64,000 nt of DNA from an uncultured Selenomonadales bacterium (GTDB lineage Bacteria > Bacillota > Negativicutes > Selenomonadales > Selenomonadaceae), in contig OMYB01000003.1 in the NCBI GenBank assembly GCA_900315155.1, forward strand, positions 124,001-188,000, given 5' to 3'. The notes below the pieces were generated by a model, which saw only the letters and a list, made by a program, of their open reading frames with translations, made no database searches and was not told the DNA's origin. Position 1 is the stretch's first letter. The number at the start of each line of letters is the position of its first letter. The position numbers and the translations under genes were made by a program. Shown piece after piece: positions 13,329 through 33,414 of the stretch.

Positions 13329-15416
13329 TTACTGCAGATAATGCGATTGTTTTCCGTAGCTAGTGACATACGCAGCCTCGCGGGCACGCGTCAGAGCTAC
13401 ATAGAGCAGACACCTCTCACTGGTGTCTGCTTCTTTTTTTGCCATTGGATCACTGACACTAACAACCGCCTTCAACGGGATCACGTTCTCATTTGCTCCT
13501 GCCACAAAGATATAACGGAATTCCAATCCCTTGACGCGGTGCATCGTCGCAAAACGGATGCCCGGCAGTGCACGGTCATCATCCTTCTTCAGCTCATAGC
13601 ATCGGAACCCACGGTCTGTGAGTGCATGCAGATAGTTGTCCAGCATATTATGCGTGCGTGCCGTGATGCAGATATCCTGCAACGGGACGCCAGCCTTCTG
13701 CATTTCCCCGATCTTATCGACGATAAAATCGATCTCCTCATTGGCAGTCCGGAAATTCTGTACGGTTGGATTGCTACCATGTGTCAGCGATTGACATGCA
13801 TCCTTCGTCAGCGTATCGCCATCCAGGTCATCAAAAGCAATCCCCTTCAGGACCGCCATAGCGAATGCACGCGTCTCTTCCGTTGTACGATAGTTGATAT
13901 GGAGGATGCTGCTGCGCCCCTGGATCCTGATGCCGCACTGTTTCAGTACGGTTTTATTGCGATAGATACGCTGATGCGAGTCACCAACGATAAAGATATC
14001 ATTCGGATGCTCCTCGCCAGCGATACTGCGGATGAGCTTCATCGCAGCCGGACTGAAATCCTGGCCTTCATCCACGATAATGTAAGGATAGAGCGTGCGA
14101 TTTTCCTTCTGGAGGAGCACGGCGCATTCATCCATAGCCCACTGGATATCGCGCCATCCGCGCTTGCGCATTTCCTGCTGATAGGCCTCAAATACCTTCC
14201 ACACAGCAGCTCGTTTCCTGCGGTCCAAAGATGTGCCACGTCCGTTGCGGGAGCAGCGGGCATAGAGCGGAGCCGTCATCGCATGCTGTGGAATGACGAC
14301 GCGATCCCATTCTTCCATATAGAACGATGCTGGCAGGCCCAGCTCATCAGCCAGTGCACCGGCAATAGCATCTTCCCAGACCTTATCCAGCTCCTTCTGC
14401 TGGTACTGCACCATTGCTCCATATCCTTCATTCCGCATATAGCGAGCCACCCAAGCATCCAGGTTGATGACGTCAATGTGACTGAGTTCCTCCGTGGTGC
14501 AGATCTTCTTCAGATTCTCCTGGATATCCGTGGCCAGGTTTGCCGTATACGTCGTGAACAGCAGTTTATCCCGCCCTGAAAGCTTCCCAGCCAGCCGCTT
14601 TGCCCGATGCATCGCTACGACCGTCTTGCCCGTGCCAGCGCCGCCCATCACGCGGGCAGAACCGGAATAGTCCTTAGTAACGGCTGCGCGCTGCGTCGGA
14701 TGCAGGAATACACGCCACTTATCCAGTGGCCACTCGAGGATATTACGCATCTCCTCCTCGCCCTCGACAACATGGAAAAATCTCTGATTGGAAGAAGTCT
14801 CCAATGCGTCCCGAAGATTCTCACTGCTATGTCTTTCCTTCTCCGAATGGCTATAATCCAAGACCTCACTGAACGGGATTCCCTCAGAAAGCCAAAACAG
14901 GCTCTCATACACATCCGGTGAAAGATCGCTTTGGAACTTTTTCAGATCCTCCTTCGAAATAAACGAGCGAATCAACGGCATTTGCTCCTCCGGCACACCG
15001 AGCCGCAGCATATCACTATCTGAAATCGACTGGAACAGTCCTGGTGCAGTGACCGTCTCGACCTCTTCCTGTACCGTATAAACCTGAATGGCTCCCGTAT
15101 AGGGATTCACCTTGCAGCTTTTGCGGCGGGCCCAGGCATAGGCCTCATCATGATGATCGACCCAGAGCAGGACATATACCCCCTGATTATCGCGCACAAC
15201 GATGCCGCGATAGGTATCATTGATACGTACCGACCATACCTTATCATCAATCTCGCTGGCAATTTTCTCATAGTGGATGGCCGATGAGGCTGGATTGGCG
15301 CGGAACTTGATCAGGAAAGCCTGCACGTGGCGCTGTTCCTGCTTGGGCAATTGAATAAACGAAGTCAAAAATTTCTCCCCGAATGCTACTTTCGGTATTG
15401 CTGTTGCTTCCATCAT
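13329..15416 (-). CDS. RelE-like/UvrD-family helicase fusion, last gene of the defence operon
   Basis: 695 residues. Residues 5-105 resemble the RelE/ParE toxin fold: an N-terminal helical hairpin, KVWSVRINDTYRGIVV and VYVLLWVDHHDEAYAW in the positions of the RelE sheet. From about residue 240 it is a superfamily 1 helicase with Walker A GGAGTGKTV (about 260), Walker B VDEGQDFSP (about 447), NYRTTEETR, MHRVKGLEF and VALTRAR. The ATG overlaps the stop of the giant upstream helicase gene as ATGA, with GGAGG inside that gene, so the two are translationally coupled. It occupies the slot where DISARM carries drmC (phospholipase D fold). Whether the RelE-like part still cuts RNA is unknown. Confidence 0.85.
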   Translation of the reverse strand: MMEATAIPKVAFGEKFLTSFIQLPKQEQRHVQAFLIKFRANPASSAIHYEKIASEIDDKVWSVRINDTYRGIVVRDNQGVYVLLWVDHHDEAYAWARRKSCKVNPYTGAIQVYTVQEEVETVTAPGLFQSISDSDMLRLGVPEEQMPLIRSFISKEDLKKFQSDLSPDVYESLFWLSEGIPFSEVLDYSHSEKERHSSENLRDALETSSNQRFFHVVEGEEEMRNILEWPLDKWRVFLHPTQRAAVTKDYSGSARVMGGAGTGKTVVAMHRAKRLAGKLSGRDKLLFTTYTANLATDIQENLKKICTTEELSHIDVINLDAWVARYMRNEGYGAMVQYQQKELDKVWEDAIAGALADELGLPASFYMEEWDRVVIPQHAMTAPLYARCSRNGRGTSLDRRKRAAVWKVFEAYQQEMRKRGWRDIQWAMDECAVLLQKENRTLYPYIIVDEGQDFSPAAMKLIRSIAGEEHPNDIFIVGDSHQRIYRNKTVLKQCGIRIQGRSSILHINYRTTEETRAFAMAVLKGIAFDDLDGDTLTKDACQSLTHGSNPTVQNFRTANEEIDFIVDKIGEMQKAGVPLQDICITARTHNMLDNYLHALTDRGFRCYELKKDDDRALPGIRFATMHRVKGLEFRYIFVAGANENVIPLKAVVSVSDPMAKKEADTSERCLLYVALTRAREAAYVTSYGKQSHYLQ

Positions 15417-18400
15417 ACTTTATTGCCTCCAAAAAATTGCATGTAATCTTCGACATTTTCATCAAAGACCGTCCACCTTTTTTTTATAAAGTTCTTCCTG
15501 GGCTGTTCGCTATCCTTCATGATGAACGCCACTTTTCTTTTTTCCCACGCCAATTCGACGCCATCAATGACACCTTCATCATCACGGACCTCGTCAAAGA
15601 CATAATCCGGCACGGGTACACCAGATGCTGCCATCCGGTATAAAAGCCTTCGCTCCGTCTCCTCTACCATACCAAAATCCTCTGCATCCTTCAGGATCTG
15701 TTTCCACTCCGGTGCGATTGCTTCCTCCGCTGCCAACGCAGCGTCATCATCCTTCGCCATGCCAACTGGCTGTGGAACGGGCCATGGCGTATAGTCCTGA
15801 TGCTCGATGCCCTTCTGGGACACTGCCGTAAACTGCTCCGCAAACTGCAGAACGTTGCAGAAATGCCAAAATCCATTCCAATCGCGGGCATACGACTCTG
15901 GCGCAGCATCCCTGTCGTCAAAGCAGATAGCGACGGCGGGTGGATAGCTGCGGTCTTTCCGCTGCTGATCGGCATCGAGGCCGACCAGACAGGTCACACA
16001 TGCGTCCTCTGCCAAATTGGGACGCCAGAGGCCGAAATAGCAGTGCCCAAATTGGAAGGAATCCATCGTGAAATTCGTCTCCTCCTGGATTTTTCGTTCC
16101 ATGGTATACCATGTCTTGAATGCGTCCTTTTTATTTGCTTTAACGACATCCAAGAGTGCCATCCCATAGGCTTTAGCGTGTGCCCGAAAAACCGCCTCTG
16201 CCGACGGCATCGACAGATAATCTATCAGCAGATCAAAAGCACTCTCTTTTGCAGGATTCACGGCCTCTGCCTGTCCGGCCCGAACCATCGGGGCATAGGC
16301 CTTTCCGCCCGGCATGCGTGCAGCGTCCAACATGTCCGTCGCATAGGGATCGACCGCCCGATAGCAGGATATGACATCGTTATAGCTCAGCGACCAGACA
16401 CGGTAGCTGCCACTGCGCGCAATGGCACCGCGTTTCAGTGTGTCATCGGCTACGATATCCTTATGATAGAGATAGCCATCTGTGAACACAACGACAGGCA
16501 GATGCTGATGATTATCTGCCCTGGTATCGAAATTCGGCCACAGCACAAAATCCGCCCGACTCTGCACCGATACGCCCTGCGGCTTCCCCATCGATACCTG
16601 CGGCTCTATTGACCAGGAGAAGCTGTGCTCGCCATCAGCATCACGCGATGTGATGTTGAGGATATAGCCTGGCTTATCATGAACGATATCCTGACGAATT
16701 TCCACATGGCGGTTCTCCCGCTCGAAATACCGGCCCAGGACATGGATGAACTCCATCTCCAGTTCGCTGTCAAAGAGATGGTTAACCGGAACGTCGCCCA
16801 GTTTCTTGATCCGCTGGATGTTCTCACGGCCGCTGAGGATTGAGCGGAGCAGCTGGATGGCTGTACGACGGGAAATATCCCCGATATTGCGGCTTTGCCG
16901 ATAGGCATAAAGGCAATGATAGCAGCCATCCTTGTTCGGATCGTCCTTGCACGAGCAGGTTTCCAGCACATGCAGAGCTTTCTCGAAAATCTGGATAAGC
17001 GCATCATCGTGCTGCATCAACTGTTTCAGATAGCCCGTACCGCCCGGCACCGAGTCATAAACGACCAGATACTGCTTGCGGTAGTCTGCATTGGGCAGCG
17101 GAACGCTGCAGATTGTCGCACGCAGATGATCCACGTTGCCGAAATACTCCTTCATGCCGAGCATGAACGCCGCCGTAAAAGACTCCGTCTTGACGCTTGT
17201 CCCCACAGCTGTGGTCTCTGGGATGAGGATGCGCAAGACTTCCGTCTGGAACTCGCGGTACAAAAACAGGCAATCCTCAACAGCCTCATTCAACAGCGCT
17301 TCGTTCTTCTTCACGGGGCAGTAGGGAGCATGATGGATTTTCCCATCCTCTTCCTGAATGCGGCCGCAGTATTGGCAGATCTGAAATCCCTTGCGGGCCT
17401 CCTCCTCGCCATTGACATACATGCGGTCCGTGCGGGAGACATCTGCCTCGCCGAAATTGATTTCCCGCAACGTCGCCTTGCGCACGAACTCGTAGCCAAA
17501 AGGAAAGTCATCATTTGCCATGCTGTAGGCTTCCTCGACATCCTGATCCTCGTTGACATCGACGAGCAGCTGCTTTGTATAGAACTTCACCGTACGGCTG
17601 TCGCTGCCGTCGTCGATAAGGCTCTTTCGCATATCCATATTCGAGTAGACCATTTTGACCTGCAGCATATCACGCAGCTGGCCAGCATCGGCCCATCCTG
17701 GATCGCCGCAGTTCGGGCAGGCCGCCCGATTCATGCTCTCCGTCTCCCGCTCGGCATGTGCACAGTTCGGACAAAGGCGCCAGCGCTCCGGCTTCGCCGA
17801 GTTGACATCCACCTGGTCGATTGTGAACTCGTGCCCGCCTGCATAAAAGCTGTTGTTCGGGGCGAACTCGCTGATGGCGCTCGATGCCGCGCGCTGATAT
17901 TCATAAACATGATTCTCGAATTTATCCTTTGTCTTTTCGTCCGCGTTCTCCTTTTTGCGGAAAAGCACCGCCTTCAACGTGATGCCCTCCTCCGGGAACG
18001 CGTAGTTCGGCAGCAGTCCCTCATCCGAAAGGAAATTAAATGTGTCCTTTTTCTTGATGCTCTTCTTGACGTTCAGCAGAGCCTGCCGCTCCGATTCCAG
18101 TTCCTTTAGCTCATCCTCATAAGAGGAATCCTGTGGCCTGGCGTGGATATCCGCAATCATGTGGTCGATCGTGCGGATGTTTTCATTGATGCTCTGGATT
18201 TCCTCCTCAATGTCACTAAAAGCCGTCAGGACCTTCTCGTGCATCGGCGACTGCTGCAGTCCATCGCCCATGACGAACCGGCTCAGTTCATCCTTCGCCC
18301 GCTCATCGAGCTGCTGTCCACCACCGTCAAAGCAACGGATAAACATCTGGAACAGGCTGTTGAGCTGTTTCTGCACATAATGGAGATAGTTGAACGGGAA

Positions 18401-21400
18401 CTCATCCTGCCCAGCCTGATGCAGGTTCAGGATCACCTGGCCCAGCCGCTTGGGGATGGCCTCCTCGGGGATGCCAGTCCGCACCCAGTTATCCATGCAG
18501 AACGCAACGAACTGGCGCTGAAGCACCGCCGATGCCCGTAAGAAAATATGCGGAGCCGTGGCACTGCCCTGCATCATATCGAGCGGATCCGTGTAGAAAT
18601 ACAGATCATGCGGCCGCGTATTCGCGACAACGAAGACGAGCGAGTTGCCATCCGTACGGCCTGCACGGCCCACGCGCTGCAGGAACTGTGCCTGTCCCGG
18701 TGGAACGCTGCAGAGAATGACCGAGGACAGGTCGCCGATATCGATACCGAGCTCAAGCGTCGGCGTACACGAGAGTACATTGGGGTCCCAGTCCCGGCGT
18801 TCCTCATGCTCACTGCGTTTGAAATCATTCTCAATATGCTCGCGGTTCTCGCGCTCGAGCAAGCCTGTATGCTCATAGGCATGGATGCGCACGAGATCGC
18901 CCTTGCTGTAGAGGCGTCCATAGTATCCCAGCCCGTCCACCTCCGTCTTCTGGAGGTATCCATCGCAGTTCCGGCGGATACACTTCGCCCCCTGCATACG
19001 GTCTGTCAGATTCTCCGCATAGGAGTACTGCGAGCCGCAGCTATCGCAGCGGAACGAGCATACAGCATCCGACACAAAGAGCTTTTCCTTGCTCAGACCA
19101 TAGACCGTAATGGTCGGCGTGCTGACACACTCCTGAAGGAATCCAGCCTCCACGGCCTCCTGCAGGATCACCTTGCTGATCTCAGCGGCGAGGTCTGGCC
19201 GACGCAGCAGGTCATCGATGGAGTCGATGCATGCCTCGACCCAGCGCGTATAGTAGTTTGCATAGTACGCATCAAAAGCGTTGGGACACTTCCCCTTTCC
19301 ACGATAGTCACAGACAAAACGTGGATTGTTGCGCCCAGACTGCAGACCTGGCATCCAGTAGCGCCCAGTTCCTGGAATGAGAAAATGCGGTTTATAGCCA
19401 CGCCCTTCAACATTATCCTGACAGAAGGGCAGCAGCTCCTCATGAAAGATAGCGCCATGATATCTTGCCAGTGTCAGCCATCCTGCCACCATACGCTCAA
19501 AATCCGGAAGCGGCATCGTATTCAGCACATTGATTTTGTTGACCACGCTGGTCTGCACGCGCTCTGCGAGGGCGCGGATCTCCTCACGGTCGAACGTCAG
19601 GCAGGAGCAGTTCGATTTCTCAAGTGTGCGTCCAATACGGCTCGTCACACCGTATTCAAGCTGAATCTCATAGGAAAGACGTTTCTCGATATCCTTCCAA
19701 AGACGATTGGCAGCCGCATTACTGCCCCATTTGCGTTTTTCACGCAGATCCTTGTAGGCCTGCATCCACACCATATTCGGCGCGATAAAGCGGCTCACGA
19801 ACTGCTCCTTCGTCAGCCGGGTCTCCGCTTCCCAATACCGCAGGAATCCCGTGATAAAGGCCTCCAGGCTCTGGCCGGCACCACCATCCTGCACATAGTG
19901 CTGGATGGCACCGCGCAGGCCGAACCGCCATGTACGCGAATTAAAAAATCCCGCCCGATGCGCCGCATCCTGCACGCTGTCCGAAAAGGCCAGGGCCTTC
20001 TTATCATCATTGAACTTCGACGCCATCATCTGCGACAGACTCGCACTGATCTCCGTCGTGCTGCGCATACCCATGAGGGAAAGGCCTCGTTTGCTCCCGC
20101 AGAAGGGGCACTCGAACTGATGCTTACGAGAGCTCATGCCCGTTGAACTCATCTTCGGAATGACGATGGGGATATACGCACCATGGTCATCCGGGCAGTA
20201 TTTCTCATCATCCTCATCGCCGCGCCGCGGAACGATATGATGGCAGGTCGGGCAGATCTTGTAGGGGGCGAAATCCGCTGACTCCTTTTCCTCGAATCCT
20301 GGGAACATCAGCGTAATCTTGTCGCTCGCATGGAAGTAGAGATTATAGAATGACTCCAGCGTATGGATATGCGAGTAATGCTTTTCATCCTGAATCGTCG
20401 CCCAGCCCGTCGCACCGCAGTCGCGGCAGTTCACGACCGGCAGATAGTTTTTCTGCTGCTGGCTGTTGAGGTCCGGTGCCAGCATATAGTTGACATCCGC
20501 CCCACTGACGCGTCCGAGCAGGCGGCGCAGCTCGCGCATCCAAAGCTGGACCTGTACAAAAAGGAACGGCATCGGATGCTCAGCCGTCCCCGTGCGGGCA
20601 TAGGAAACCAGTGCCATAAGTGAGTCGAGGCCCGCCTCCTGCGGCTGCCAGGACTGGATCTGTGGATAGCGGCCGGACAGTTCCTTCGCGAGCGCATCAT
20701 CCTGCCAGTAATTCCCCTTCATCGTGGCAATGGCATCCTGAAAGAACCCATGCTGCTTCAGTGCCCGGCCGAGGCGGATGCGCTCCTCCATATTCTCTCC
20801 GACGAAATGGAACGAGGCCTTTGGAAACCAGCTGTCTGCGGCACGCTGCAGGTAAGCCATCTCATCCGTTTCATCTGAGAGATGGTCCAGCGCCGCGACG
20901 TCCTCCTCCGTGGGCAGGCTGAGATAGGTACGCTCCTCCCCCGCAAAGAACTCCTCTGGAAGCAGACGGTCCTCCGTAATCAAGGCATGATCATCAAAGT
21001 GCTCGCCAAAGACATCCTGGGCGTATTTCAGGATGCTCTTGGCGCTCCCTTTACTGCCCATGGTCGCTGACGTACCGATACAGCAGAGATAGCCCGGCTG
21101 GATGTAGAGACGCGATTTCAGGCGGCGCAGCAGGCAGGCGAGATCCGTTCCCTGTGCGCCGTCGAACGTATGGAACTCATCGACAACGATGTATCGGAGC
21201 GTATCCGGACGATTATCCCGCCACAGCCCGGCATCCTTTGGACGGACGAGCAGGTAGTCGAGCATCTTGTAGTTCGTGAGCAGGATATCCGGCGGCGTAT
21301 GGATCATCGTCTCGTGATCCGTGATGATACCGAGGATATTCTTCTCCTTGTCCGGAGCCGACATCAGCGTCGCGCCTTTGCCGCGGCCGCCGCCGATGTA

Positions 21401-21883
21401 CATGCCCGCCGTGATACCAGCCTTCGCGAGTTTCTCGTTCGAAGCGATGGCCTTCGCCAGACGCGAGGCCTGATCGGTGGCCAGGGCGTTCATCGGATAG
21501 ATGAGCAGCGCCTTGATGCCAGGATTGCGGTGATGGTAACAGTACTCGAGGACCGGATTCAAAAAACATTCTGTTTTACCAGAGCCGGTACCCGTCGCGA
21601 CCAGCGTTGAGCAGCAGTCATCCCCTACGAGCCGCGCATAGGCCTTCTCCTGATGCACGTAGGGCATAAAGGGCAGCTCCACCCCATCAAAGCAGCCGGG
21701 CATGTGCTCCGCTTTGCGGAACGGCAGCTTCACCGAGAGATACGGCTTATGAAACACCGCATCCCCCTGCTCAAACATCGCCTCAACCGAACCCGCAAAT
21801 GGTTCATTCGTCATGGGGAACGTCGTCTCGACATAGTCCTCAATGCCCTGCTGCAGCTGCTTGGCCAGTATCGATGGCAGCAT
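15413..21883 (-). CDS. Giant DEAD/DEAH helicase fused to DUF1998 (DrmA-DrmB-like / DruE-like)
   Basis: 2156 residues. The superfamily 2 helicase has Walker A TGTGSGKTE (about 97), DEFH box (about 235), GTSATM (about 270) and QRVGRAGR (about 1069). Cys-rich zinc ribbons lie between (CRDCGATGW, CPTCHH, CPFCGS, CDSCGS). DUF1998 follows with YDSVPGGTGYLKQ (about 1611) and CxC...CYHC (about 1648). Near 1775-1800 SRADFVLWP and VVVFTDGYLYHKD resemble a VSR/PD-(D/E)XK-like fold. The last 300 residues are not recognised. In DISARM the helicase and DUF1998 are separate proteins (DrmA, DrmB); in Druantia a DruE protein of similar size combines them. The gene order here favours a DISARM-like role in restricting incoming DNA. 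Confidence 0.88.
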   Translation of the reverse strand: MLPSILAKQLQQGIEDYVETTFPMTNEPFAGSVEAMFEQGDAVFHKPYLSVKLPFRKAEHMPGCFDGVELPFMPYVHQEKAYARLVGDDCCSTLVATGTGSGKTECFLNPVLEYCYHHRNPGIKALLIYPMNALATDQASRLAKAIASNEKLAKAGITAGMYIGGGRGKGATLMSAPDKEKNILGIITDHETMIHTPPDILLTNYKMLDYLLVRPKDAGLWRDNRPDTLRYIVVDEFHTFDGAQGTDLACLLRRLKSRLYIQPGYLCCIGTSATMGSKGSAKSILKYAQDVFGEHFDDHALITEDRLLPEEFFAGEERTYLSLPTEEDVAALDHLSDETDEMAYLQRAADSWFPKASFHFVGENMEERIRLGRALKQHGFFQDAIATMKGNYWQDDALAKELSGRYPQIQSWQPQEAGLDSLMALVSYARTGTAEHPMPFLFVQVQLWMRELRRLLGRVSGADVNYMLAPDLNSQQQKNYLPVVNCRDCGATGWATIQDEKHYSHIHTLESFYNLYFHASDKITLMFPGFEEKESADFAPYKICPTCHHIVPRRGDEDDEKYCPDDHGAYIPIVIPKMSSTGMSSRKHQFECPFCGSKRGLSLMGMRSTTEISASLSQMMASKFNDDKKALAFSDSVQDAAHRAGFFNSRTWRFGLRGAIQHYVQDGGAGQSLEAFITGFLRYWEAETRLTKEQFVSRFIAPNMVWMQAYKDLREKRKWGSNAAANRLWKDIEKRLSYEIQLEYGVTSRIGRTLEKSNCSCLTFDREEIRALAERVQTSVVNKINVLNTMPLPDFERMVAGWLTLARYHGAIFHEELLPFCQDNVEGRGYKPHFLIPGTGRYWMPGLQSGRNNPRFVCDYRGKGKCPNAFDAYYANYYTRWVEACIDSIDDLLRRPDLAAEISKVILQEAVEAGFLQECVSTPTITVYGLSKEKLFVSDAVCSFRCDSCGSQYSYAENLTDRMQGAKCIRRNCDGYLQKTEVDGLGYYGRLYSKGDLVRIHAYEHTGLLERENREHIENDFKRSEHEERRDWDPNVLSCTPTLELGIDIGDLSSVILCSVPPGQAQFLQRVGRAGRTDGNSLVFVVANTRPHDLYFYTDPLDMMQGSATAPHIFLRASAVLQRQFVAFCMDNWVRTGIPEEAIPKRLGQVILNLHQAGQDEFPFNYLHYVQKQLNSLFQMFIRCFDGGGQQLDERAKDELSRFVMGDGLQQSPMHEKVLTAFSDIEEEIQSINENIRTIDHMIADIHARPQDSSYEDELKELESERQALLNVKKSIKKKDTFNFLSDEGLLPNYAFPEEGITLKAVLFRKKENADEKTKDKFENHVYEYQRAASSAISEFAPNNSFYAGGHEFTIDQVDVNSAKPERWRLCPNCAHAERETESMNRAACPNCGDPGWADAGQLRDMLQVKMVYSNMDMRKSLIDDGSDSRTVKFYTKQLLVDVNEDQDVEEAYSMANDDFPFGYEFVRKATLREINFGEADVSRTDRMYVNGEEEARKGFQICQYCGRIQEEDGKIHHAPYCPVKKNEALLNEAVEDCLFLYREFQTEVLRILIPETTAVGTSVKTESFTAAFMLGMKEYFGNVDHLRATICSVPLPNADYRKQYLVVYDSVPGGTGYLKQLMQHDDALIQIFEKALHVLETCSCKDDPNKDGCYHCLYAYRQSRNIGDISRRTAIQLLRSILSGRENIQRIKKLGDVPVNHLFDSELEMEFIHVLGRYFERENRHVEIRQDIVHDKPGYILNITSRDADGEHSFSWSIEPQVSMGKPQGVSVQSRADFVLWPNFDTRADNHQHLPVVVFTDGYLYHKDIVADDTLKRGAIARSGSYRVWSLSYNDVISCYRAVDPYATDMLDAARMPGGKAYAPMVRAGQAEAVNPAKESAFDLLIDYLSMPSAEAVFRAHAKAYGMALLDVVKANKKDAFKTWYTMERKIQEETNFTMDSFQFGHCYFGLWRPNLAEDACVTCLVGLDADQQRKDRSYPPAVAICFDDRDAAPESYARDWNGFWHFCNVLQFAEQFTAVSQKGIEHQDYTPWPVPQPVGMAKDDDAALAAEEAIAPEWKQILKDAEDFGMVEETERRLLYRMAASGVPVPDYVFDEVRDDEGVIDGVELAWEKRKVAFIMKDSEQPRKNFIKKRWTVFDENVEDYMQFFGGNKV

Positions 21884-21896
21884 GTTTACTCCTCCT

Positions 21897-21922
21897 CAAA
21901 AGCCCTGCTCATCGGCAGGGCT
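21897..21922 (-). terminator. Terminator-like hairpin between the toxin-antitoxin insert and the giant helicase
   Basis: On the minus strand AGCCCTGC, a six-base loop and GCAGGGCT are followed by four Ts and then directly by the ribosome site GAGGAGG of the helicase gene. It may attenuate read-through or sequester the ribosome site. Confidence 0.6.
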
Positions 21923-21927
21923 TAGAT

Positions 21928-22140
21928 TTATGCGTTGTTTTGATTCATTAGCTCTCTCACCAGATCCTCCATCGGAGTATCCGGCACAAGATATTTCTCC
22001 TTGGTGTAATCACCATAACCATTATCGAATTGCTGGATAAAGCGGGCGCAGCCCACAGGTCCCAGCGCAGCAACCAACGCCTGCATCCCCGCATTGCGGA
22101 CATCCATAGGACTGTTTACATTAACATTCATCATGTTCAA
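21928..22140 (-). CDS. Small putative antitoxin paired with PIN protein
   Basis: 70 residues starting MNMMNVNVNSP, with a helical core (NAGMQALVAALGPVGCARFIQQF) and an acidic C-terminal tail ending ELMNQNNA. Its start lies 20 bases inside the end of the PIN-domain gene, the coupling typical of toxin-antitoxin pairs, although the usual order is antitoxin first. The short start alternatives (Met1, Met3 or Met4) cannot be separated. No DNA-binding motif is obvious. The antitoxin role is inferred from position and size. Confidence 0.6.
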   Translation of the reverse strand: MNMMNVNVNSPMDVRNAGMQALVAALGPVGCARFIQQFDNGYGDYTKEKYLVPDTPMEDLVRELMNQNNA

Positions 22141-22573
22141 TCACCTCTGCAAGATACGAGACAGGATTCATCACACGAACATGCAAGTCAAGCTTTTGAC
22201 ATGCACGAACCAGCTTATCATCCGTGGAAAGAAACACATCCGCATGACCGGCTTCAGCGCTGGCAATATGCAAACTATCCATGCTGTGAATAGCACTCGC
22301 CTGCTGAATCCTCTGTGCGCGTGAATGAATATCCGCCGTAAACGGGATTTCTTCACTGCTCTGCTGATAAAGCATCTGAACCTTTGCTTTCTTCGCCAGA
22401 TCGGATATCTTTTGAATCTCCATCTTCAACACCTGACTCCCAAGAATCACAGAACCATTTGTCTGGCTCCTGTTCAGGATAGAGAGGATCGCATCACTCT
22501 CATCGTGAATCCGGTTTTGAGTCAGATCATCAAAGGGACGGTTATAACAGCAGCAATCCAAATATAATCGCAT
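22121..22573 (-). CDS. PIN-domain ribonuclease (VapC-like toxin candidate)
   Basis: 150 residues with the PIN fold signature: an N-terminal strand with acidic residue (RLYLDCCCYNRPFDD), a central acidic helix (SQVLKMEIQKI), SMDSLHIASAE and LSTDDKLVRAC. These supply the usual metal-binding acids of a Mg-dependent RNase. AGGAAGGA precedes the ATG. It lies 44 bases after the methyltransferase gene on the same strand and overlaps the small gene that follows. Its place inside the defence operon suggests either a toxin-antitoxin stabiliser of the cluster or an abortive-infection effector. A non-toxic RNA-processing PIN protein is the alternative. Confidence 0.8.
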   Translation of the reverse strand: MRLYLDCCCYNRPFDDLTQNRIHDESDAILSILNRSQTNGSVILGSQVLKMEIQKISDLAKKAKVQMLYQQSSEEIPFTADIHSRAQRIQQASAIHSMDSLHIASAEAGHADVFLSTDDKLVRACQKLDLHVRVMNPVSYLAEVIEHDEC

Positions 22574-22617
22574 TGGGCACGATCCTTCCTTTCTATTCTA
22601 TTCGACCAAAATGAAAA

Positions 22618-25600
22618 TCACACGTTCTTTCCGTATTTCTTCTCAAAGAAGGCCCAGACCGTCTCGTAGTCCTTCTCACGGTCGCAGCGATCGAAGGGAG
22701 CCACGTAGGTTACCGTACGCTCGACAGGGCCGCCTGGCTGCGTGTCGTCTGTGAAAGAGTGGTCATATGTTTTGCCCGCTGGATAATCGCAGATTAATTT
22801 CCATTCATCCGGATTAACACCAACTAGTTTTCGTCCCTTTTTATCAGACCCTGTATAGCTTCTGGCTACAGAAAAAACAATTTTTCCATTTGCATCATAC
22901 CATGTATTTCTTTCGTTGTTGTTTAACACAGAAAATTGAATTCGGTAAATTGTTTTCAGCTCATCCAAACTCATTCCTAACGCCATTGATGATAGCACAT
23001 CAATTTCAACAAGTGCTTGTCTACGAGAAAAATCCGAACGAATTGGAGTATCCCACAACCATTTTGGAGTTAATTTCTCATAAACTTCATTAGAAAGTCT
23101 ATTATCAGCTTTAGCCCATCTAAAATATCTAAACTCATCCTTATAGCTATCTTTCCATAACTTCGAGTAATTTTTCGTTAAACAGTTTAAAAGTAGTGTT
23201 CTAGCTATTATTTCACCATCAAATCGACTATCGATGATTGGTAATAAACTAATATTTTCCGTTCCAAGATTCTGTTTTCCTGTCAGTTTTACAAAAAAAT
23301 CATACGATAGCGATGAACAATATCCACTAAACTTTACAACATCTAGTTCCTTTTTTAGAGAAATGCCTAGGATAGCATGAATGTGAGCAGTATTTGGAGG
23401 TAGTATACAGCTAATTAATGTGCGTTCACCACTTGGACTCAGCATCTCTCGGGCAGCAAATCTATACTCTTCTGTTATTTTGCTCCCCCATGGAGTTTTT
23501 GGAATTCTCCTTATATATGTATTTCTATCGCATCTTGGTTGATAATTTGTTCTTTGAAAATAATCCTCACAGATATTCGTTAAATCTATATTATCGAAAT
23601 TGGTGTTGTTTTTGTACTCTCTCTGCGTACATTTAAAAATCGGATTTGCTACGCCTATATGCGAACCTGAATATATCATTGCAGATATCGACTCAGGAAA
23701 ATCCACTTTGGCGTAAATCGTTCCATCTTTTTTAGCGTTCGTCTCGTTCCAGAACTGCGTTATATATACATCATCTTTATAATCAAATAGATTATGTTTC
23801 TGACCATTTAATATTCTTAGTACATCCAGTAATTCGGTACAATGAATAATTGGTAATTTTGCCTCTTGCCAAGTAGTTCCTCTGTCAAATAAATCAGAAA
23901 ATAATTTTAATTCGTTCCTGGTTATTTTAATAATTCGATGCGGATGGCCATCTAATATCCACTGATTGTCTTTACTCTTATTAGATGGAACAGCCTCATT
24001 TTCTTTTTCCGATGAATTGTAGCAATCATCTATCGTTGATGGGGCATATAAATGATTAATTACATCAAATTTTATTTCATGTTTATTCCCAAACACATTC
24101 AGTGAAAAAGTTCTTTCATGGTGAATTTCCTTGAACAACTTCTTTTCATTTACAAAAGAGAATCTGTAAAAAAGCCTTTCATACATCAACTTTCTTAAAG
24201 CTCCACCATTTGGATCATCATAAACGCCTTCTGGGCAAATCAATGATACAGTTCCATTTCTTTGAGATGAAATTACAGTTAGAGATAATACAATAAAGCA
24301 CTTATACAAATTCGTTTTCTGTTTTTTTAATGTTGGATAAGCGCATATGGAATTTAAGAAATTTTGTTCGCCAGAAATGGATTGATACTCTTTAAAATAA
24401 GCTTTCTTTGCCCCAGGAACGCTCAGTACAATCTCTCGGAAATCTTGGACTTTCTTTGCATTCAAAGACTTAATAATCAATAAAGGATTTTCATCAGACA
24501 GTGTATTCTGCTCTTTCCATTCAAGTTTAATCCAAGGAGGGTTACCAACAACCAATGACATCCCCCCCTTACGAGCAAACACATCCGCAAACTCGAGTTC
24601 CCAGTGCATAAATCGGTCCTGTTTGGCGATTTTGCGCACAAGTGCCAATCGTGGGAAGATTTGACAGAGCTGGTCGATGTCTACGCTACTATTGCTAGGG
24701 AAGCAATTGTGGATTTTCTCTGCCATGGCATCCTGCAGTTCTTCGCGTTCAGAGGCAAATAGGTTCAGCTGCTCGTCATGACTGAAGAGATTTATTTCGC
24801 CCCCCAACATATCCTCACCTGTGCTGGACACTGCCGTGCCTTCAAGGATAAAATCCATTTCAGAGAGGAACTCGGTGCGCGATGGCAGCAGATCGGCCTG
24901 TTCTATAGGCCAGAACCAGAGCGCACACCAGTAATCCATGGCGAAGCGCAGACGCGCGTATGGGCCTGCATTTTTCATGTGTTCAGACTTGTAGTATTTG
25001 CGATAGATTTCATCCTTGCGGCGAATCGTCATGTGGTTCTCGGGGATATCATCCTCGTAGCCATAGATGGAGAGCTTGTCCCGCGTCTCGCGGTCGATGG
25101 TTTCGCGCAGCTCGACCTGCTGATGCCAGAGTTCGTCGATCTTAGCCGAGAGCGCAAGCATGACCCGGATTTCATCGTCGGTATATGGCTTTTTCGTGAA
25201 TTCTTCCTGCCATGCCTTGATCCTCTTGGTATTTTCTGGCTCAAGTCCTTTGATGACATCATCCGTGTAGTTGGCCATGCCCGGGTCACCAGTGAGGAAG
25301 TGATAGATTTTCGTATCTTTCTTTCCGCGTACCTTGCGTGCTTTATCCGGGGCGATGCGCGTTGGCGGCATTTCGTACCAGTGCAGGCCCTTACTCGTGG
25401 CCTGCAGGTTCACGATGTCGTAGCATTCGCGGCGTGCGCCGATGAGGGAGTTTCCGTTGACGAGCTGCGTGCCGAACCAGGGAACGAAGCCGCCCTCATA
25501 AATCGTATTGAGCCAGAGAGAGACCTCAGCCAGCTCAACGGCCGTTGGGTTGAGGTCGACACCGTAGACGTTGCGGTCAGCGAGGAACATCTTGACCTTC

Positions 25601-27492
25601 TGGAGTTCTTTCGGACGCTGATCGTAGGGAATCGACTCGCCAAGTTCCTCCTGCCGTTTCATGAGGTAGGCATCTGCCAGCTGGTTGATGGTTTCGTTCA
25701 GGAATGCCGCGGATCCCATGGCCGGCTCACAGACCGTTATCTTTAGAATGTCGTCAGCGGTCTTGTCTTTCAGGAGTTCCTTCAGCGCGTATTTCACGAG
25801 GCATTTCGTCAGGACCTCCGGCGTATAGTAGGAGGCAGACTTCTCCCGTTCACGGCCAGCCAGACGATAGATGAACGTGCCCTTCTCATAGCAGCGCGGC
25901 TTCCCCTTCATCTCCCCACTCGTATAGCGGACGCGCTCGGACTCCTTGTACTGGTCGAGCTGCGACTCAGGGACGAAATAGCCGACCGCGAGCTCATCGT
26001 ATTTCTTGTCGTCGGCTTTCTTGACCTCGTAAAGCTTTTCCTGTGCAATGAAGCCACGGTAGGAAAGCAGAGCCTCGTAGACGGCACCCATCTGGTTGAT
26101 GCCAAGGTTGGCATACGAAATACGCCCCCGGCGTTCGTTCTTTTTGCCCGTGGCCCGCGTGATGCTCATGAGTTCGATGATGCGCAGCATCGTCTTGTTG
26201 CGCAGTTTCGCCGCATGGAGGAGTGCCGTGCGCTCGGGGTCGAAGATATGCGCTTTCAGCGGCGGCAGGACAAACATATCATGCTGGCTCTCTGCTTTGC
26301 TGTATTTTTCCTGCTCCTCCTCCATCTCCGGATAACCCGTGTAGATGAGGTCAAAGAGCCGCTGCAGGCTGTCTCCGAGGTACGTGCCCTCCTGCATGCT
26401 CTCGGTCGGCTCGCTGGAGATATGGCCGGCGACCTTCCGCAGGTTTTCGATGGAGTAGCCCGTCGCGTAGACCTCGTTCTTCATTGGGGCATAGCCGAGA
26501 TCCGTGCGCGACTCGATGAACAGCACGAACAACATGCGGTACATATAGCGCAGGCACTGCAGCGTGAGGTCTGAGGCATCCACATCCGCCGTAGTGAGAG
26601 TCTTGATTCCCTTCTGCTTTGCGATGTCCGCAAAATGCTCCGGATGATGTGCGACATCATAGAGGACTTCGTTGCCGAGCAGTTCGATGCTCTCACGCAG
26701 GGCGTATTTCAGATCCTCCGAGACCCCCTCTGCATTTTGTTCTGACTCCTCACCGAGACGGTCGAGGACATTCTCCCCGTGATCCGGACAGATGCTGTCA
26801 TGATGCAGCAGGATGGCCATAGCCTGCCACGTCGAGCTGTCATTCCGGCTGAAAATTGTCTCGAGGTCAAAGGACAAATACTGCTTTCTATCCCATTTCT
26901 GGCGGTCGATGAGGGCAATCTCCTCCATACCGATATAAAGCAGCCAGCGCGGAGGCTCTTGCTGGCCAAAGAAAATCGCATTTGTCAGGTCTTCATTGGC
27001 GCCCCCCCCCGTCTGGAGGTCTGCCAGAGAGACATCCTCCGGGGCAAAGACATGGCTCTCCATGATGCCTGTCGTGAACTCCTGATTGCGCGTCGGCGCA
27101 GCCAGCAGGACCCATAGCAACGGACTGCCGTCCTCTTTCGTGAGTTCGAGCGCCACTGGGATTTCCTGGTCATCCTCAAGCGTGATGCGCACTGGTTTCA
27201 TCGCCGGATAGCCGAGAGCATCCAGATATTTCGCTGCCATATCGACAATGGCGTCGAGCGTGTCCTCGTTCACGACCTGCTTTTGGAACTGTGCATGCGC
27301 AGCGTAATAAGAGCGGGCACAGGCCTGCAGGCGCGACCATGGTGCCTGGGTATCCGCATTTTCCTTTACCGCATTCTTCCATGCCGTGATGTCCGTCTGG
27401 ATGCTATTCGCGAACATGGTGTGCAGGTAATGATTCGTATAGTACTCGTTGACGTTATCGATGCCCGTCAAATCGGCTTCTTTCACTGCCAT
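22618..27492 (-). CDS. Large N6-adenine DNA methyltransferase (DrmMI/PglX/Eco57I-like)
   Basis: 1624 residues. The methyltransferase core has the AdoMet-binding motif CEPAMGSAAFLNE (about 592) and the N6-adenine catalytic motif GNPPWIKLEW (about 982). The N-terminal 550 residues are helical and partly resemble degenerate nuclease or type I-like sequence. Codons for about residues 980-1567 are strikingly AT-rich compared with both flanks, marking the target recognition region as an exchanged segment. A nine-G run at about residue 162 lies in frame. It overlaps the SNF2 gene start-to-stop by ten bases. In DISARM the corresponding enzyme marks self DNA. Methylation sequence cannot be deduced. 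Confidence 0.88.
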   Translation of the reverse strand: MAVKEADLTGIDNVNEYYTNHYLHTMFANSIQTDITAWKNAVKENADTQAPWSRLQACARSYYAAHAQFQKQVVNEDTLDAIVDMAAKYLDALGYPAMKPVRITLEDDQEIPVALELTKEDGSPLLWVLLAAPTRNQEFTTGIMESHVFAPEDVSLADLQTGGGANEDLTNAIFFGQQEPPRWLLYIGMEEIALIDRQKWDRKQYLSFDLETIFSRNDSSTWQAMAILLHHDSICPDHGENVLDRLGEESEQNAEGVSEDLKYALRESIELLGNEVLYDVAHHPEHFADIAKQKGIKTLTTADVDASDLTLQCLRYMYRMLFVLFIESRTDLGYAPMKNEVYATGYSIENLRKVAGHISSEPTESMQEGTYLGDSLQRLFDLIYTGYPEMEEEQEKYSKAESQHDMFVLPPLKAHIFDPERTALLHAAKLRNKTMLRIIELMSITRATGKKNERRGRISYANLGINQMGAVYEALLSYRGFIAQEKLYEVKKADDKKYDELAVGYFVPESQLDQYKESERVRYTSGEMKGKPRCYEKGTFIYRLAGREREKSASYYTPEVLTKCLVKYALKELLKDKTADDILKITVCEPAMGSAAFLNETINQLADAYLMKRQEELGESIPYDQRPKELQKVKMFLADRNVYGVDLNPTAVELAEVSLWLNTIYEGGFVPWFGTQLVNGNSLIGARRECYDIVNLQATSKGLHWYEMPPTRIAPDKARKVRGKKDTKIYHFLTGDPGMANYTDDVIKGLEPENTKRIKAWQEEFTKKPYTDDEIRVMLALSAKIDELWHQQVELRETIDRETRDKLSIYGYEDDIPENHMTIRRKDEIYRKYYKSEHMKNAGPYARLRFAMDYWCALWFWPIEQADLLPSRTEFLSEMDFILEGTAVSSTGEDMLGGEINLFSHDEQLNLFASEREELQDAMAEKIHNCFPSNSSVDIDQLCQIFPRLALVRKIAKQDRFMHWELEFADVFARKGGMSLVVGNPPWIKLEWKEQNTLSDENPLLIIKSLNAKKVQDFREIVLSVPGAKKAYFKEYQSISGEQNFLNSICAYPTLKKQKTNLYKCFIVLSLTVISSQRNGTVSLICPEGVYDDPNGGALRKLMYERLFYRFSFVNEKKLFKEIHHERTFSLNVFGNKHEIKFDVINHLYAPSTIDDCYNSSEKENEAVPSNKSKDNQWILDGHPHRIIKITRNELKLFSDLFDRGTTWQEAKLPIIHCTELLDVLRILNGQKHNLFDYKDDVYITQFWNETNAKKDGTIYAKVDFPESISAMIYSGSHIGVANPIFKCTQREYKNNTNFDNIDLTNICEDYFQRTNYQPRCDRNTYIRRIPKTPWGSKITEEYRFAAREMLSPSGERTLISCILPPNTAHIHAILGISLKKELDVVKFSGYCSSLSYDFFVKLTGKQNLGTENISLLPIIDSRFDGEIIARTLLLNCLTKNYSKLWKDSYKDEFRYFRWAKADNRLSNEVYEKLTPKWLWDTPIRSDFSRRQALVEIDVLSSMALGMSLDELKTIYRIQFSVLNNNERNTWYDANGKIVFSVARSYTGSDKKGRKLVGVNPDEWKLICDYPAGKTYDHSFTDDTQPGGPVERTVTYVAPFDRCDREKDYETVWAFFEKKYGKNV
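27002..27010 (-). repeat. Nine-base poly-G tract in the methyltransferase coding sequence
   Basis: Nine consecutive Cs on the plus strand (Gs in the gene) encode Gly-Gly-Gly at about residue 162 of 1624. The frame is open at this length. Addition or loss of one base would truncate the protein before its catalytic domain, the arrangement of contingency loci in phase-variable methyltransferases. Confidence 0.8.
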
Positions 27493-30359
27493 TCCTTGTG
27501 ACCTCCCTCTGGTTTGCCCGTGAATACAGCCAGGACGCGGATATAGGGATTGTCCTGGATCACCATCGTGTCTTGAACCCAGTTGACAAACTCCCCAAAG
27601 ATCGTCTCCACTTCACGCACGCCAGCATCCTGCCTGCGCTTGCCCTGCCGCTCAAGGGTGCGCCGCTGATAGGCGATATGCTTCTCCTGCAGGGCTATCA
27701 GCTTATCCACCTCTGCATCAATCTGCGGATGGGCCTGCTTCTCGTACGCCTCGTAACGCTGATGCAGATAGTCCCGAGCTCGGTCGATGACGTCGGAGAG
27801 ATAGGACTGGCAGTGCTCCTGCAAATCATGGTAGTGGCTCTGGCGGTCGACCATATTCGGCAGATCGAGCTTACCATGCAGTCCTGCCTTGCGAATCACC
27901 TCAGACAGTGGCAGGATGCGTACGAACTGCCCCTTCTCGTAGAGCAGGCCAAACCAGGCATCGACGAGCGGTGTGGATTTCCGGTTTGGGATGCTGCCGC
28001 TGAGGACGTACACACAGGTATCGGCATCCCATTCCGGCAGCACAGCCAATGGAGCCTGGTCCCGTTCGTAGATCAGGCTGGTCTTGTCGTTCACCCAGTC
28101 AAAAATCGGGTTCAACGGCCAAAGATACTGAACGTCCGGCCATGCATTCTCCGACTGGCCCTCCTGACTCTCCACAACGGCATCCATACAGAACTGCTTA
28201 TCGCTGACAAGCCGCAGGTAGCTCTTGTCCTTCAGCTGCTCATAGACCTCACGCGGAAGCTTATTGCGCATGCGCCGCCGGATGGTATCATCGATCTGAA
28301 TGTCGAGCCCCTTCGTCCGCGTCAGACGTTCGACAGGATGCTCCTCCGTGCGATTGAAATACGTCATAGCCTCATAGAGATAGTCAGTATCGCTGAACAG
28401 TGTATGGTCCTCGACTGTGACTGGCTCGTCTTCTTTCTCCTCCTGCTCGGCATCTGCCTGTCCCAACAGGAAGGCCAGCGGATCGTCGGCGATGTGCTGG
28501 TCCAGTTCAGCCTGAATCTCCTCCGGAGAGCAGTCCTTCTCCATGAGTCCGGCGACATGCTCCTGCTCGCCGTCGATGGAGTAATCCGCAAGGAGCTGAG
28601 CCGGGTCTCCGATATTCTTCTGCGCCTGCTCCTCTTTCTCGACCAGGATCTCGAGCAGACGCAGGTCGCCACGGATTTTCGGGTTCTGTGCCTCCGTCAC
28701 GAGGTAACGGATGTCCGGCTGTTTCTTCTGCCCATAACGGTCGATGCGGCCATTGCGCTGCTGGAATACCATGAGCGACCACGGCAGGTCGAAATGGATC
28801 AGGCGGTGGCTGAGGTAGTGCAGGTTCAAGCCCTCAGAAGCGACATCCGATGCCACGAGGATGCGGACCTTCGCCTCAAGACGCCCAAAATCTTCAACGA
28901 TTTTCTGCTGCTCCTCATCGCTCATCGAACCAGATATCTGCGCAATCTCTGCCTTCTTGAGATTCATGTCTTTTTTCAGCTGCGCATAGAGGAAATGCAT
29001 CGTATCGACGCGTTCGGTAAAGATGACGATACGGTCATCCTTGGCCTTGCGATTCCATGCATAATCCTCACTCTGCAACAGGGAAAGGAGTCTCTGATAG
29101 CGCGAAAATTTCTTGGGCGTAATCTCCGCCACGGCATCGCGGAACTGCTGAAGCGTATGGATATCGTCAATCTCATCGTCAGCATATCTCTTGCGGAGCC
29201 GTTTGAGACGGTTCTCCACCGTGCTCACACAGGCTGCAGGGCTGGAGAACAACGCCTTTTCCAGAGACGTCTGGAAAAGCTGGCCCGTCCCCTTTTTATG
29301 CCGCAGATCCATATCGAGGTGCATATGCGTCAGAAGGTCATAGGCATACTCCTCGGCCTCCGTCGAGGGGCAGCGTTCCTCCAGCATGCGGCGCTCACCC
29401 GCCGTTCCCTGCATCTGGTGGATGACGTCCTTTTTGAATCGACGCACAAAAAGGCCTTGAATGTCTTCCTTCGTATAATCCGACGGATTGGCGATGGCCG
29501 TCGGGTCAAGCATATTCATCAGCGAGGCAAAGCTTTCCGGACGACCATCATGCGGCGTTGCCGAGAGCATGATCATCGTGTCGGACTGCTTGGACAGCAC
29601 CTCGGCCAGTTTCGCACGCTGAGCCTTTTTACTGCCACGCGTCGCCACGTTCTGTGCCTCATCGATGACGATGATATCCCAATGTGCATGCTCGAGATGA
29701 TTCCGATAAGCTACATCATTCTTCAGCGTATCGATGGAAATAATCGTCTTATCGTAGTAAAAGAATGGGTTATCATTCACAGGCAGCTGGCTGCGGATCT
29801 GACGGATCTTATTTGAGTCCAGGCGGATGAGCGGTATCGTGAAACGGTTCCACATTTCCTTTTGGAACTGGACCATCATGGATTTCCCTGTGACCACGAG
29901 GATACGCTTGCCCTTGCCGCGAAGGATAAGTTCGCTCATGAGGATGCCTGCCTCCAGCGTCTTGCCGAGGCCGACAGCATCGGCGATGAGGATGCGCTGA
30001 CGTGGCTGACTCAGTGCTACCTGCGTTGGTTTCAGCTGAAATGGCATGAGATTCATGGCTGCTTTCTGGCCGACGTGGATTTGCGTGTCCGTCGGGATTC
30101 TCTGCCGCCACTGACTCTCCAGGTACAACAAAGAGTCCCTGTAGTGCGGGGACTCATCAACAATCAGATTTACTTTTTTCGGATCAACCGGAATGGGATG
30201 GTCGATATCATCGAGAAACACCGACTCGCATTCCCTGACCAGCGGTGTCACACCGATGCAATAGAGCGCATGATGCTTCATGTCATTGGTCTCGACCTTC
30301 TTAATCATCCATTCTTCATCGCGAACCATCACGCGCATGCCCGGTGCAAAATCGATCAT
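27483..30359 (-). CDS. SNF2-family helicase (DrmD-like), first gene of the defence operon
   Basis: 958 residues from the ATG at 30359, one base after the stop of the upstream small membrane gene. A longer start at 30407 would overlap that gene. Superfamily 2 SNF2 motifs are complete: Walker A IADAVGLGKT (about 126), DEAQ (about 233), LSATPHDGR, ASDVASEGLNL and QQRNGRIDRYGQ (about 535). A long charged C-terminal part holds acidic stretches and a coiled coil (IDAEVDKLIALQEKHIAY). It is the DrmD equivalent by position: SNF2, then N6-adenine methyltransferase, then helicase plus DUF1998, as in class 1 DISARM. Likely a DNA translocase that remodels or tracks on unmodified phage DNA. Confidence 0.87.
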   Translation of the reverse strand: MIDFAPGMRVMVRDEEWMIKKVETNDMKHHALYCIGVTPLVRECESVFLDDIDHPIPVDPKKVNLIVDESPHYRDSLLYLESQWRQRIPTDTQIHVGQKAAMNLMPFQLKPTQVALSQPRQRILIADAVGLGKTLEAGILMSELILRGKGKRILVVTGKSMMVQFQKEMWNRFTIPLIRLDSNKIRQIRSQLPVNDNPFFYYDKTIISIDTLKNDVAYRNHLEHAHWDIIVIDEAQNVATRGSKKAQRAKLAEVLSKQSDTMIMLSATPHDGRPESFASLMNMLDPTAIANPSDYTKEDIQGLFVRRFKKDVIHQMQGTAGERRMLEERCPSTEAEEYAYDLLTHMHLDMDLRHKKGTGQLFQTSLEKALFSSPAACVSTVENRLKRLRKRYADDEIDDIHTLQQFRDAVAEITPKKFSRYQRLLSLLQSEDYAWNRKAKDDRIVIFTERVDTMHFLYAQLKKDMNLKKAEIAQISGSMSDEEQQKIVEDFGRLEAKVRILVASDVASEGLNLHYLSHRLIHFDLPWSLMVFQQRNGRIDRYGQKKQPDIRYLVTEAQNPKIRGDLRLLEILVEKEEQAQKNIGDPAQLLADYSIDGEQEHVAGLMEKDCSPEEIQAELDQHIADDPLAFLLGQADAEQEEKEDEPVTVEDHTLFSDTDYLYEAMTYFNRTEEHPVERLTRTKGLDIQIDDTIRRRMRNKLPREVYEQLKDKSYLRLVSDKQFCMDAVVESQEGQSENAWPDVQYLWPLNPIFDWVNDKTSLIYERDQAPLAVLPEWDADTCVYVLSGSIPNRKSTPLVDAWFGLLYEKGQFVRILPLSEVIRKAGLHGKLDLPNMVDRQSHYHDLQEHCQSYLSDVIDRARDYLHQRYEAYEKQAHPQIDAEVDKLIALQEKHIAYQRRTLERQGKRRQDAGVREVETIFGEFVNWVQDTMVIQDNPYIRVLAVFTGKPEGGHKEWQ

Positions 30360-30360
30360 C

Positions 30361-30639
30361 TTACTTCGCCTCTTGCTGTTCTTTTGCCTTTTCTTTCTCC
30401 TCTTCACTCACGATGAGCTTGAGCTGTTTGCAGCAGAAGTAGGCGCCGCCGAGGCCGAGGAGGACGAGGACGGGGCCGAGGATAATGTGCTCCGTGTGGA
30501 GGAGCAGGTAGACGCCGCCCGCCGCAGCAGCGACGAAGCAGAGCATGCTCCACGCCTGGATGAGCTGGTTATAGAGATACGAGAACTTCGTACTCTTCGC
30601 ATTTTTCGGATCGAGATGCAGGTTCAGATTCAGTTTCAT
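30361..30639 (-). CDS. Small two-helix membrane protein
   Basis: 92 residues. A polar N-terminus is followed by two hydrophobic helices (AWSMLCFVAAAAGGVYLLL and IILGPVLVLLGLGGAYFCC) and a highly charged Glu/Lys tail, so both termini are probably cytoplasmic. GGGGAGAAAATC precedes the ATG. Its stop lies one base before the SNF2 helicase start, so it could be translated with the defence operon, or simply be the last core gene before it. Function not recognised. Confidence 0.65.
   Translation of the reverse strand: MKLNLNLHLDPKNAKSTKFSYLYNQLIQAWSMLCFVAAAAGGVYLLLHTEHIILGPVLVLLGLGGAYFCCKQLKLIVSEEEKEKAKEQQEAK

Positions 30640-33329: not shown

Positions 33330-33414
<85 letters not shown>

Follow-up and report, generated by a model that had tools for sequence, protein, structure and literature searches.

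An ARMADA type II operon with PIN-domain cargo between armB and armC in a Selenomonas-related bacterium

RESULTS AND DISCUSSION

Four large genes in the order of ARMADA type II

Does the long minus-strand operon of this Selenomonas-related bacterium (host genome 2.49 Mb) encode an undescribed hybrid of known defense types, or a system that already has a name? In the window (the whole 64,000-nucleotide stretch of DNA analyzed), four large co-directional ORFs, each open at the coordinates given here, occupy the minus strand from 30359 down to 13329. They encode an SNF2 helicase resembling BrxHII, RapA, and DrmD (ArmA, 27483–30359, 958 aa), a PglX-like N6-adenine DNA methyltransferase (ArmB, 22618–27492, 1624 aa), a YprA-family DEAD helicase with an MZB/DUF1998 region (ArmC, 15413–21883, 2156 aa), and a RelE-like domain fused to a GajB-like UvrD helicase (ArmD, 13329–15416, 695 aa), the last overlapping the ArmC ORF by 4 nt. 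ArmA starts at the ATG at 30359; a GTG at 30407 in the ORF list falls within the upstream gene. A preliminary description had counted five large minus-strand genes, of which the strand and common direction stand, but the large genes number four, accompanied by two small ones in the interval 21884–22617. Its gene order of SNF2 helicase, N6-adenine methyltransferase, helicase plus DUF1998, and UvrD helicase agrees with the ORFs and with Pfam (ArmA, SNF2-rel_dom and Helicase_C; ArmB, Eco57I/N6_Mtase; ArmC, DEAD, Helicase_C, and MZB; ArmD, UvrD N and C), and helicase and DUF1998 do form one 2156-residue protein encoded by a single ORF.

ARMADA was described in September 2025 in a study of YprA-family helicases (Bell et al. 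2025, PMC12458937). According to that account, type II has the strict order BrxHII-like helicase, PglX-like methyltransferase, YprA-like helicase, and RelE-GajB-like fusion; it protects E. coli against phages in a non-abortive manner, infected cells surviving, and protection depends on every one of the four genes and on most of the active sites, helicase and methyltransferase motifs included (PMC12458937). With the ARMADA island of E. coli ATCC 8739 (L065) as reference, all four window proteins aligned end to end with ArmA–D at 34%–46% identity (ArmA, 46% over 963 columns; ArmB, 39% over 1692; ArmC, 34% over 2217; ArmD, 46% over 701). All eight residues reported as mutated in E. coli (ArmA K136 and D236, ArmB G605 and N971, ArmC K110 and D234, ArmD K266 and D454; PMC12458937) were conserved when located through the alignments with ATCC 8739 ArmA–D, the window residues being the Walker A K133 and Walker B D233 of ArmA, the SAM-motif G593 and NPPW N984 of ArmB, K103 and D235 of ArmC, and the Walker A K264 and Walker B D449 of ArmD. 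The 4-nt armC/armD overlap is likewise common to both loci, and ArmC grouped with E. coli ArmC rather than with one Druantia III DruE in a tree built without ARMADA I or DISARM references. Across the 45 named and 6 same-family loci surveyed, the A-B-C-D order held wherever the genes were present.

Sequence comparison thus leaves membership in ARMADA II well supported, and the system itself is not new, as its gene content, order, and fusions have already been described under that name. We read the locus as ARMADA type II, armA-armB-[cargo]-armC-armD, and assign a probability of roughly 93% to this reading together with the mechanism proposed below, the Bacillota insertion slot, and the PIN-domain passenger. 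The four genes, their order, fusions, and catalytic residues are as in E. coli ATCC 8739 and NCTC 12900; however, armB and armC overlap by 1 nt in E. coli, whereas 734 bp of cargo with a PIN gene pair separate them here, and the host belongs to the Selenomonadaceae (Bacillota). In contrast to E. coli ARMADA II, no Zorya II or Druantia III was found directly beside the window operon. Its nearest ARMADA relative belongs to Selenomonas ruminantium GACV-9 (63%), and the locus brings into ARMADA II a Bacillota lineage in which a clear set of orthologs is present.

Why the locus resembles a hybrid of DISARM and Druantia

Searches with PADLOC-DB 2023, Pfam, and NCBIfam by themselves fail to identify the system. 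In PADLOC, ArmA matched DrmD (6e-102), ArmB matched type IIG (8e-262) and DrmMI (1e-58), ArmC matched DruE1 (7e-110), and ArmD matched GajB and other UvrD models, while no operon gene had a curated-level NCBIfam match. Because the 2023 profiles predate ARMADA, they distribute the genes among DrmD, type IIG, DruE, and GajB, and it is this scatter that makes the locus look like a hybrid; a locus spread over four unrelated systems can now be placed in a single validated one. A clean assignment to a described system, which would have told against the preliminary interpretation, was therefore not obtained from the 2023 set; the literature supplies it, with exactly this gene set (PMC12458937). A stand-alone type IIG restriction-methyltransferase fusion was also considered for armB, whose product matches PDLC03614 end to end, and was rejected, as the gene belongs to a four-gene operon that is conserved across the surveyed loci.

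The locus had been interpreted as an undescribed DISARM subtype with fused DrmA-DrmB and a RelE-UvrD protein replacing DrmC. As in class 1 DISARM, a DrmD-like SNF2 helicase and a DrmMI-like, PglX-like methyltransferase precede a YprA-family helicase, and ArmA and ArmB match the corresponding profiles in a class 1-like order. The ArmA match to DrmD (NF038317) nonetheless reaches only 353 bits against a cut-off of 610, and ArmC matches DrmA at only 3e-13 over about 105 residues, compared with 7e-110 for the DruE models and an end-to-end alignment for E. coli ArmC. Class 1 DISARM has separate drmA and drmB genes and the PLD nuclease DrmC, whereas here helicase and DUF1998 are fused, a RelE-UvrD gene is added, and, as had been noted, drmC is missing (no PLD domain in any operon protein at E ≤ 0.1 in Pfam). 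With the same gene set already described as ARMADA II (PMC12458937), a new DISARM subtype is very improbable; what survives of that interpretation is an antiphage operon sharing parts with class 1 DISARM and Druantia. A Druantia variant, DruE with accessory genes, is less probable still: DruE1/DruE3 models do match across helicase and MZB (up to 7e-110), but no DruH, DruA-D/M/F/G, or other Druantia partner was found among the scanned operon proteins, and E. coli Druantia III DruE aligned only in two parts, of 255 and 745 columns (21%–33% identity), against 2217 columns for ArmC of the same strain. The likeness to Druantia III (DruH-DruE) lies in a large helicase of the YprA family that carries DUF1998 and a nuclease region at its C-terminus; Druantia III has DruH and a PLD nuclease, whereas this operon has no DruH, a predicted Vsr-like nuclease, a methyltransferase, and two further helicases.

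A juxtaposition that is DISARM-like in look occurs on a Tsukamurella plasmid (NZ_LR134452, L096), where ARMADA II adjoins split helicase and DUF1998 genes and armC itself is annotated as two genes.

A predicted nuclease, a RelE-like domain, and a proposed mechanism

A Vsr-like PD-(D/E)XK nuclease region is predicted near the C-terminus of ArmC (16376–16768, minus strand; approximately residues 1706–1836, with D1778, D1802, and H1807). A D...TDG...H pattern within residues 1690–2156 is conserved in 40 homologs including E. coli, and hhalign against an alignment of 22 Vsr proteins aligned this motif to the catalytic stretch of Vsr (E 4e-4, probability 36%, a short match), the DUF559 and RelE controls giving probabilities near 1% and below. 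Foldseek with a model of the 467 C-terminal residues, the part of the giant helicase for which a structure search had been proposed, returned no significant match, so the Vsr claim draws on the motif, on the short profile match, and on the published analysis (PMC12458937), with which a Vsr assignment, likely on these grounds, is in line. Sequence searches of the PDB with profiles of the ArmC C-terminus and the ArmD N-terminus gave nothing significant.

Structure predictions used window and fetched contig proteins only as input. The model of ArmD residues 1–235, built with 34 sequences, reached a pLDDT of 90, and its Foldseek matches were RelE, YoeB, YafQ, and HigB toxins (best E 3e-4); the modeled structure confirms a RelE-like fold, and with it the RelE-UvrD fusion of the preliminary description. 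The suggestion that this protein stands in for DrmC fails, since the predicted nuclease sits at the C-terminus of ArmC.

In the mechanism that we consider most likely, ArmB would methylate host DNA as a self mark, and ArmA, ArmC, and ArmD would act as ATP-driven DNA translocases or helicases on incoming or replicating phage DNA, which we infer to be their substrate. The C-terminal Vsr-like nuclease of ArmC would then destroy phage DNA without killing the cell, with the RelE domain of ArmD in a presumed role. It has been reported that DruE of Druantia III loads on 3' single-stranded DNA and has a helicase-nuclease role (PMC13192584), which by analogy makes replication intermediates a plausible substrate for ARMADA. 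In the same reading, the armB-armC junction of Bacillota also takes up independent defense or toxin genes, and in the window it holds the PIN pair.

The armB-armC junction as an insertion slot

The armB-armC junction varied among the 45 named and 6 same-family loci, a set seeded by ArmC peptides and consisting mostly of MAGs. Further genome surveys added almost no new loci, four of the five regions retrieved in them being on contigs equal in length to those of loci already included. In none of 32 loci did the spacing between armA and armB exceed 200 bp, compared with 14 of 32 for armB and armC, where 0.9–4.7 kb of foreign genes (up to 4658 bp) were found (Fisher p 2e-5). Two large armC-armD gaps among 39 loci (L016 and L061) were both artefacts, caused by a match to ArmD that was short and by an ArmC ORF that was split, and no genuine insertion at that junction survived their inspection.

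By Pfam and PADLOC, the cargo comprises Abi_2 with a nuclease-like protein (L014), DUF3644-EC042_2821 (L015), PDDEXK_2 (L016), Schlafen AlbA (L020 and L022), DEAD/ResIII (L021), GajA and GajB of Gabija (L022 and L030), a PHP-domain PDC-M49A protein with a HigB-like/HTH pair (L026), an M78 peptidase (L058), GmrSD (L033 and L052), and an AAA-ATPase with PDDEXK_9 (L045), the second copies of Schlafen and Gabija being assigned by comparison. Slot proteins in L040 (8281–9959), L056 (2275–4257), and L046 (8596–9978) had no Pfam or PADLOC assignment and are candidate defense genes; cargo lacking a Pfam family also occurs in L014 (listed as L046/L014).

On a quick ArmC tree, the root of which is unsure, the filled or empty state of the junction switches at least nine times. 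Two close relatives, one empty (L034) and one filled (L052), share approximately 90% identity on both flanks of a 1.7-kb insert starting at the armB stop codon, and an empty/filled comparison of L023 with L040 gave a like result; together with the spacing survey, such comparisons delimit the filled slot in the window (21884–22617, 734 bp). One locus carries two stacked modules (L022, 7278–11816), in which Gabija is followed by a 74-bp copy of the armC start and a Schlafen gene, and copies of the armB tail lie inside the slot in L032 and L026. These scars in L022, L026, and L032 suggest repeated recombination in the flanking armB and armC genes. In our reading, the armB-armC junction in Bacillota is an insertion slot at which unrelated bacteria carry different additional defense or toxin-like genes. 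Elsewhere, the junction is spanned without a large insert in the E. coli loci, among the matches listed, is tight in plasmid loci of E. coli, Klebsiella, Gemmobacter, and Tsukamurella, and measures 206 bp in Pseudanabaena.

An alternative is that these inserts reflect random gene gain in operons, noticed through ArmC-based sampling. The cargo is indeed heterogeneous, no shared integrase or repeat was found, and the loci are mostly from MAGs and were gathered with ArmC peptides. Nevertheless, sampling through ArmC should not favor one junction over its neighbors, and random gain sits poorly with 14 of 32 insertions at B-C against 0 of 32 at A-B and no real one at C-D, with the common insertion point in filled and empty pairs of close relatives, and with the armC-head or armB-tail scars within the slot. 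We consider random gain unlikely. Beyond the insertion slot itself, we tentatively raise the possibility, doubtful as it is at present, that the Bacillota junction is dedicated to exchange, with second-line modules (toxin pairs, Gabija, GmrSD, and Schlafen RNases) swapped through recombination in flanking armB and armC and working with ARMADA, for example, as an abortive backup when phages disable it. If the slot is functional, reading between armB and armC would offer an easy route to unknown defense genes.

The published account stresses strict gene order in ARMADA, and no description of the slot was found in the passages of its main text consulted (PMC12458937). Embedded PIN, Schlafen, OLD/TOPRIM (Gabija), and GmrSD nucleases have been reported within core operons of BREX and BREX-related loci (PMC12839542). 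The kinds of nuclease are the same as those found here, although that report concerns BREX and related loci, not ARMADA (PMC12839542), and the insertions described here are confined to one junction.

The PIN-domain pair and the setting of the operon

Within the window slot lie, on the minus strand, a gene for a toxin-like PIN-domain protein of 150 aa (22121–22573), which barely passes its Pfam threshold (PF01850, 24.7 bits against a cut-off of 23.6), and an overlapping gene for a 68-aa protein (21928–22134), a putative partner or antitoxin for which Pfam returned no match. Among 189 genomes of the bacterial family, 21 have the 68-aa family, and a PIN ORF, intact or partial, accompanied 20 of 22 copies of its gene. 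Since the pair occurs mostly in genomes without an ArmB match and the 68-aa family is scattered in this way, we regard the pair, which is the cargo in the window, as mobile in its own right. It shares with type II PIN-domain toxin-antitoxin modules a PIN gene overlapping a small gene, a scattered occurrence in the family, and a hairpin that often follows; unlike them, it has the putative toxin gene first and a partner without a Pfam family. We consider the pair most likely to be a passenger of toxin-antitoxin type that is transcribed together with ARMADA, possibly providing a second, abortive layer.

After the cargo, just before the armC ribosome-binding site, lies a strong minus-strand stem-loop (21900–21923; AAGCCCTGC-CGATGA-GCAGGGCTT, about −18 kcal/mol) with a short T run, too short for a scan for consensus terminators to call it. 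A hairpin also closes many of the free-standing PIN pairs in the family, so this one may have arrived with the cassette and may be a terminator left over within the operon, which might reduce armC-armD transcription here.

At the other end of the operon, armA begins one base past the point at which the gene for a small membrane protein stops, the latter belonging to a DUF445-DUF445 operon (30359–30363, minus strand), and because of this spacing the ARMADA genes may be transcribed from the promoter of that host operon. The DUF445-DUF445-membrane gene trio is present in three genomes of the same genus without an ArmB match. A tRNA-Leu gene (33330–33414) was considered as an attachment site because it lies 3 kb upstream of the operon, and was set aside as its 3' end does not recur in the window, where no tRNA-type repeat marking an element boundary was found either.

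One surveyed ARMADA locus is in decay (L018, G167:C9, 550–12458): armA and armB are broken and armC is lost, and in the place of armC lie approximately 12 kb whose encoded products include a cytosine methyltransferase, a Vsr protein, and a GmrSD-like (DUF262) protein.
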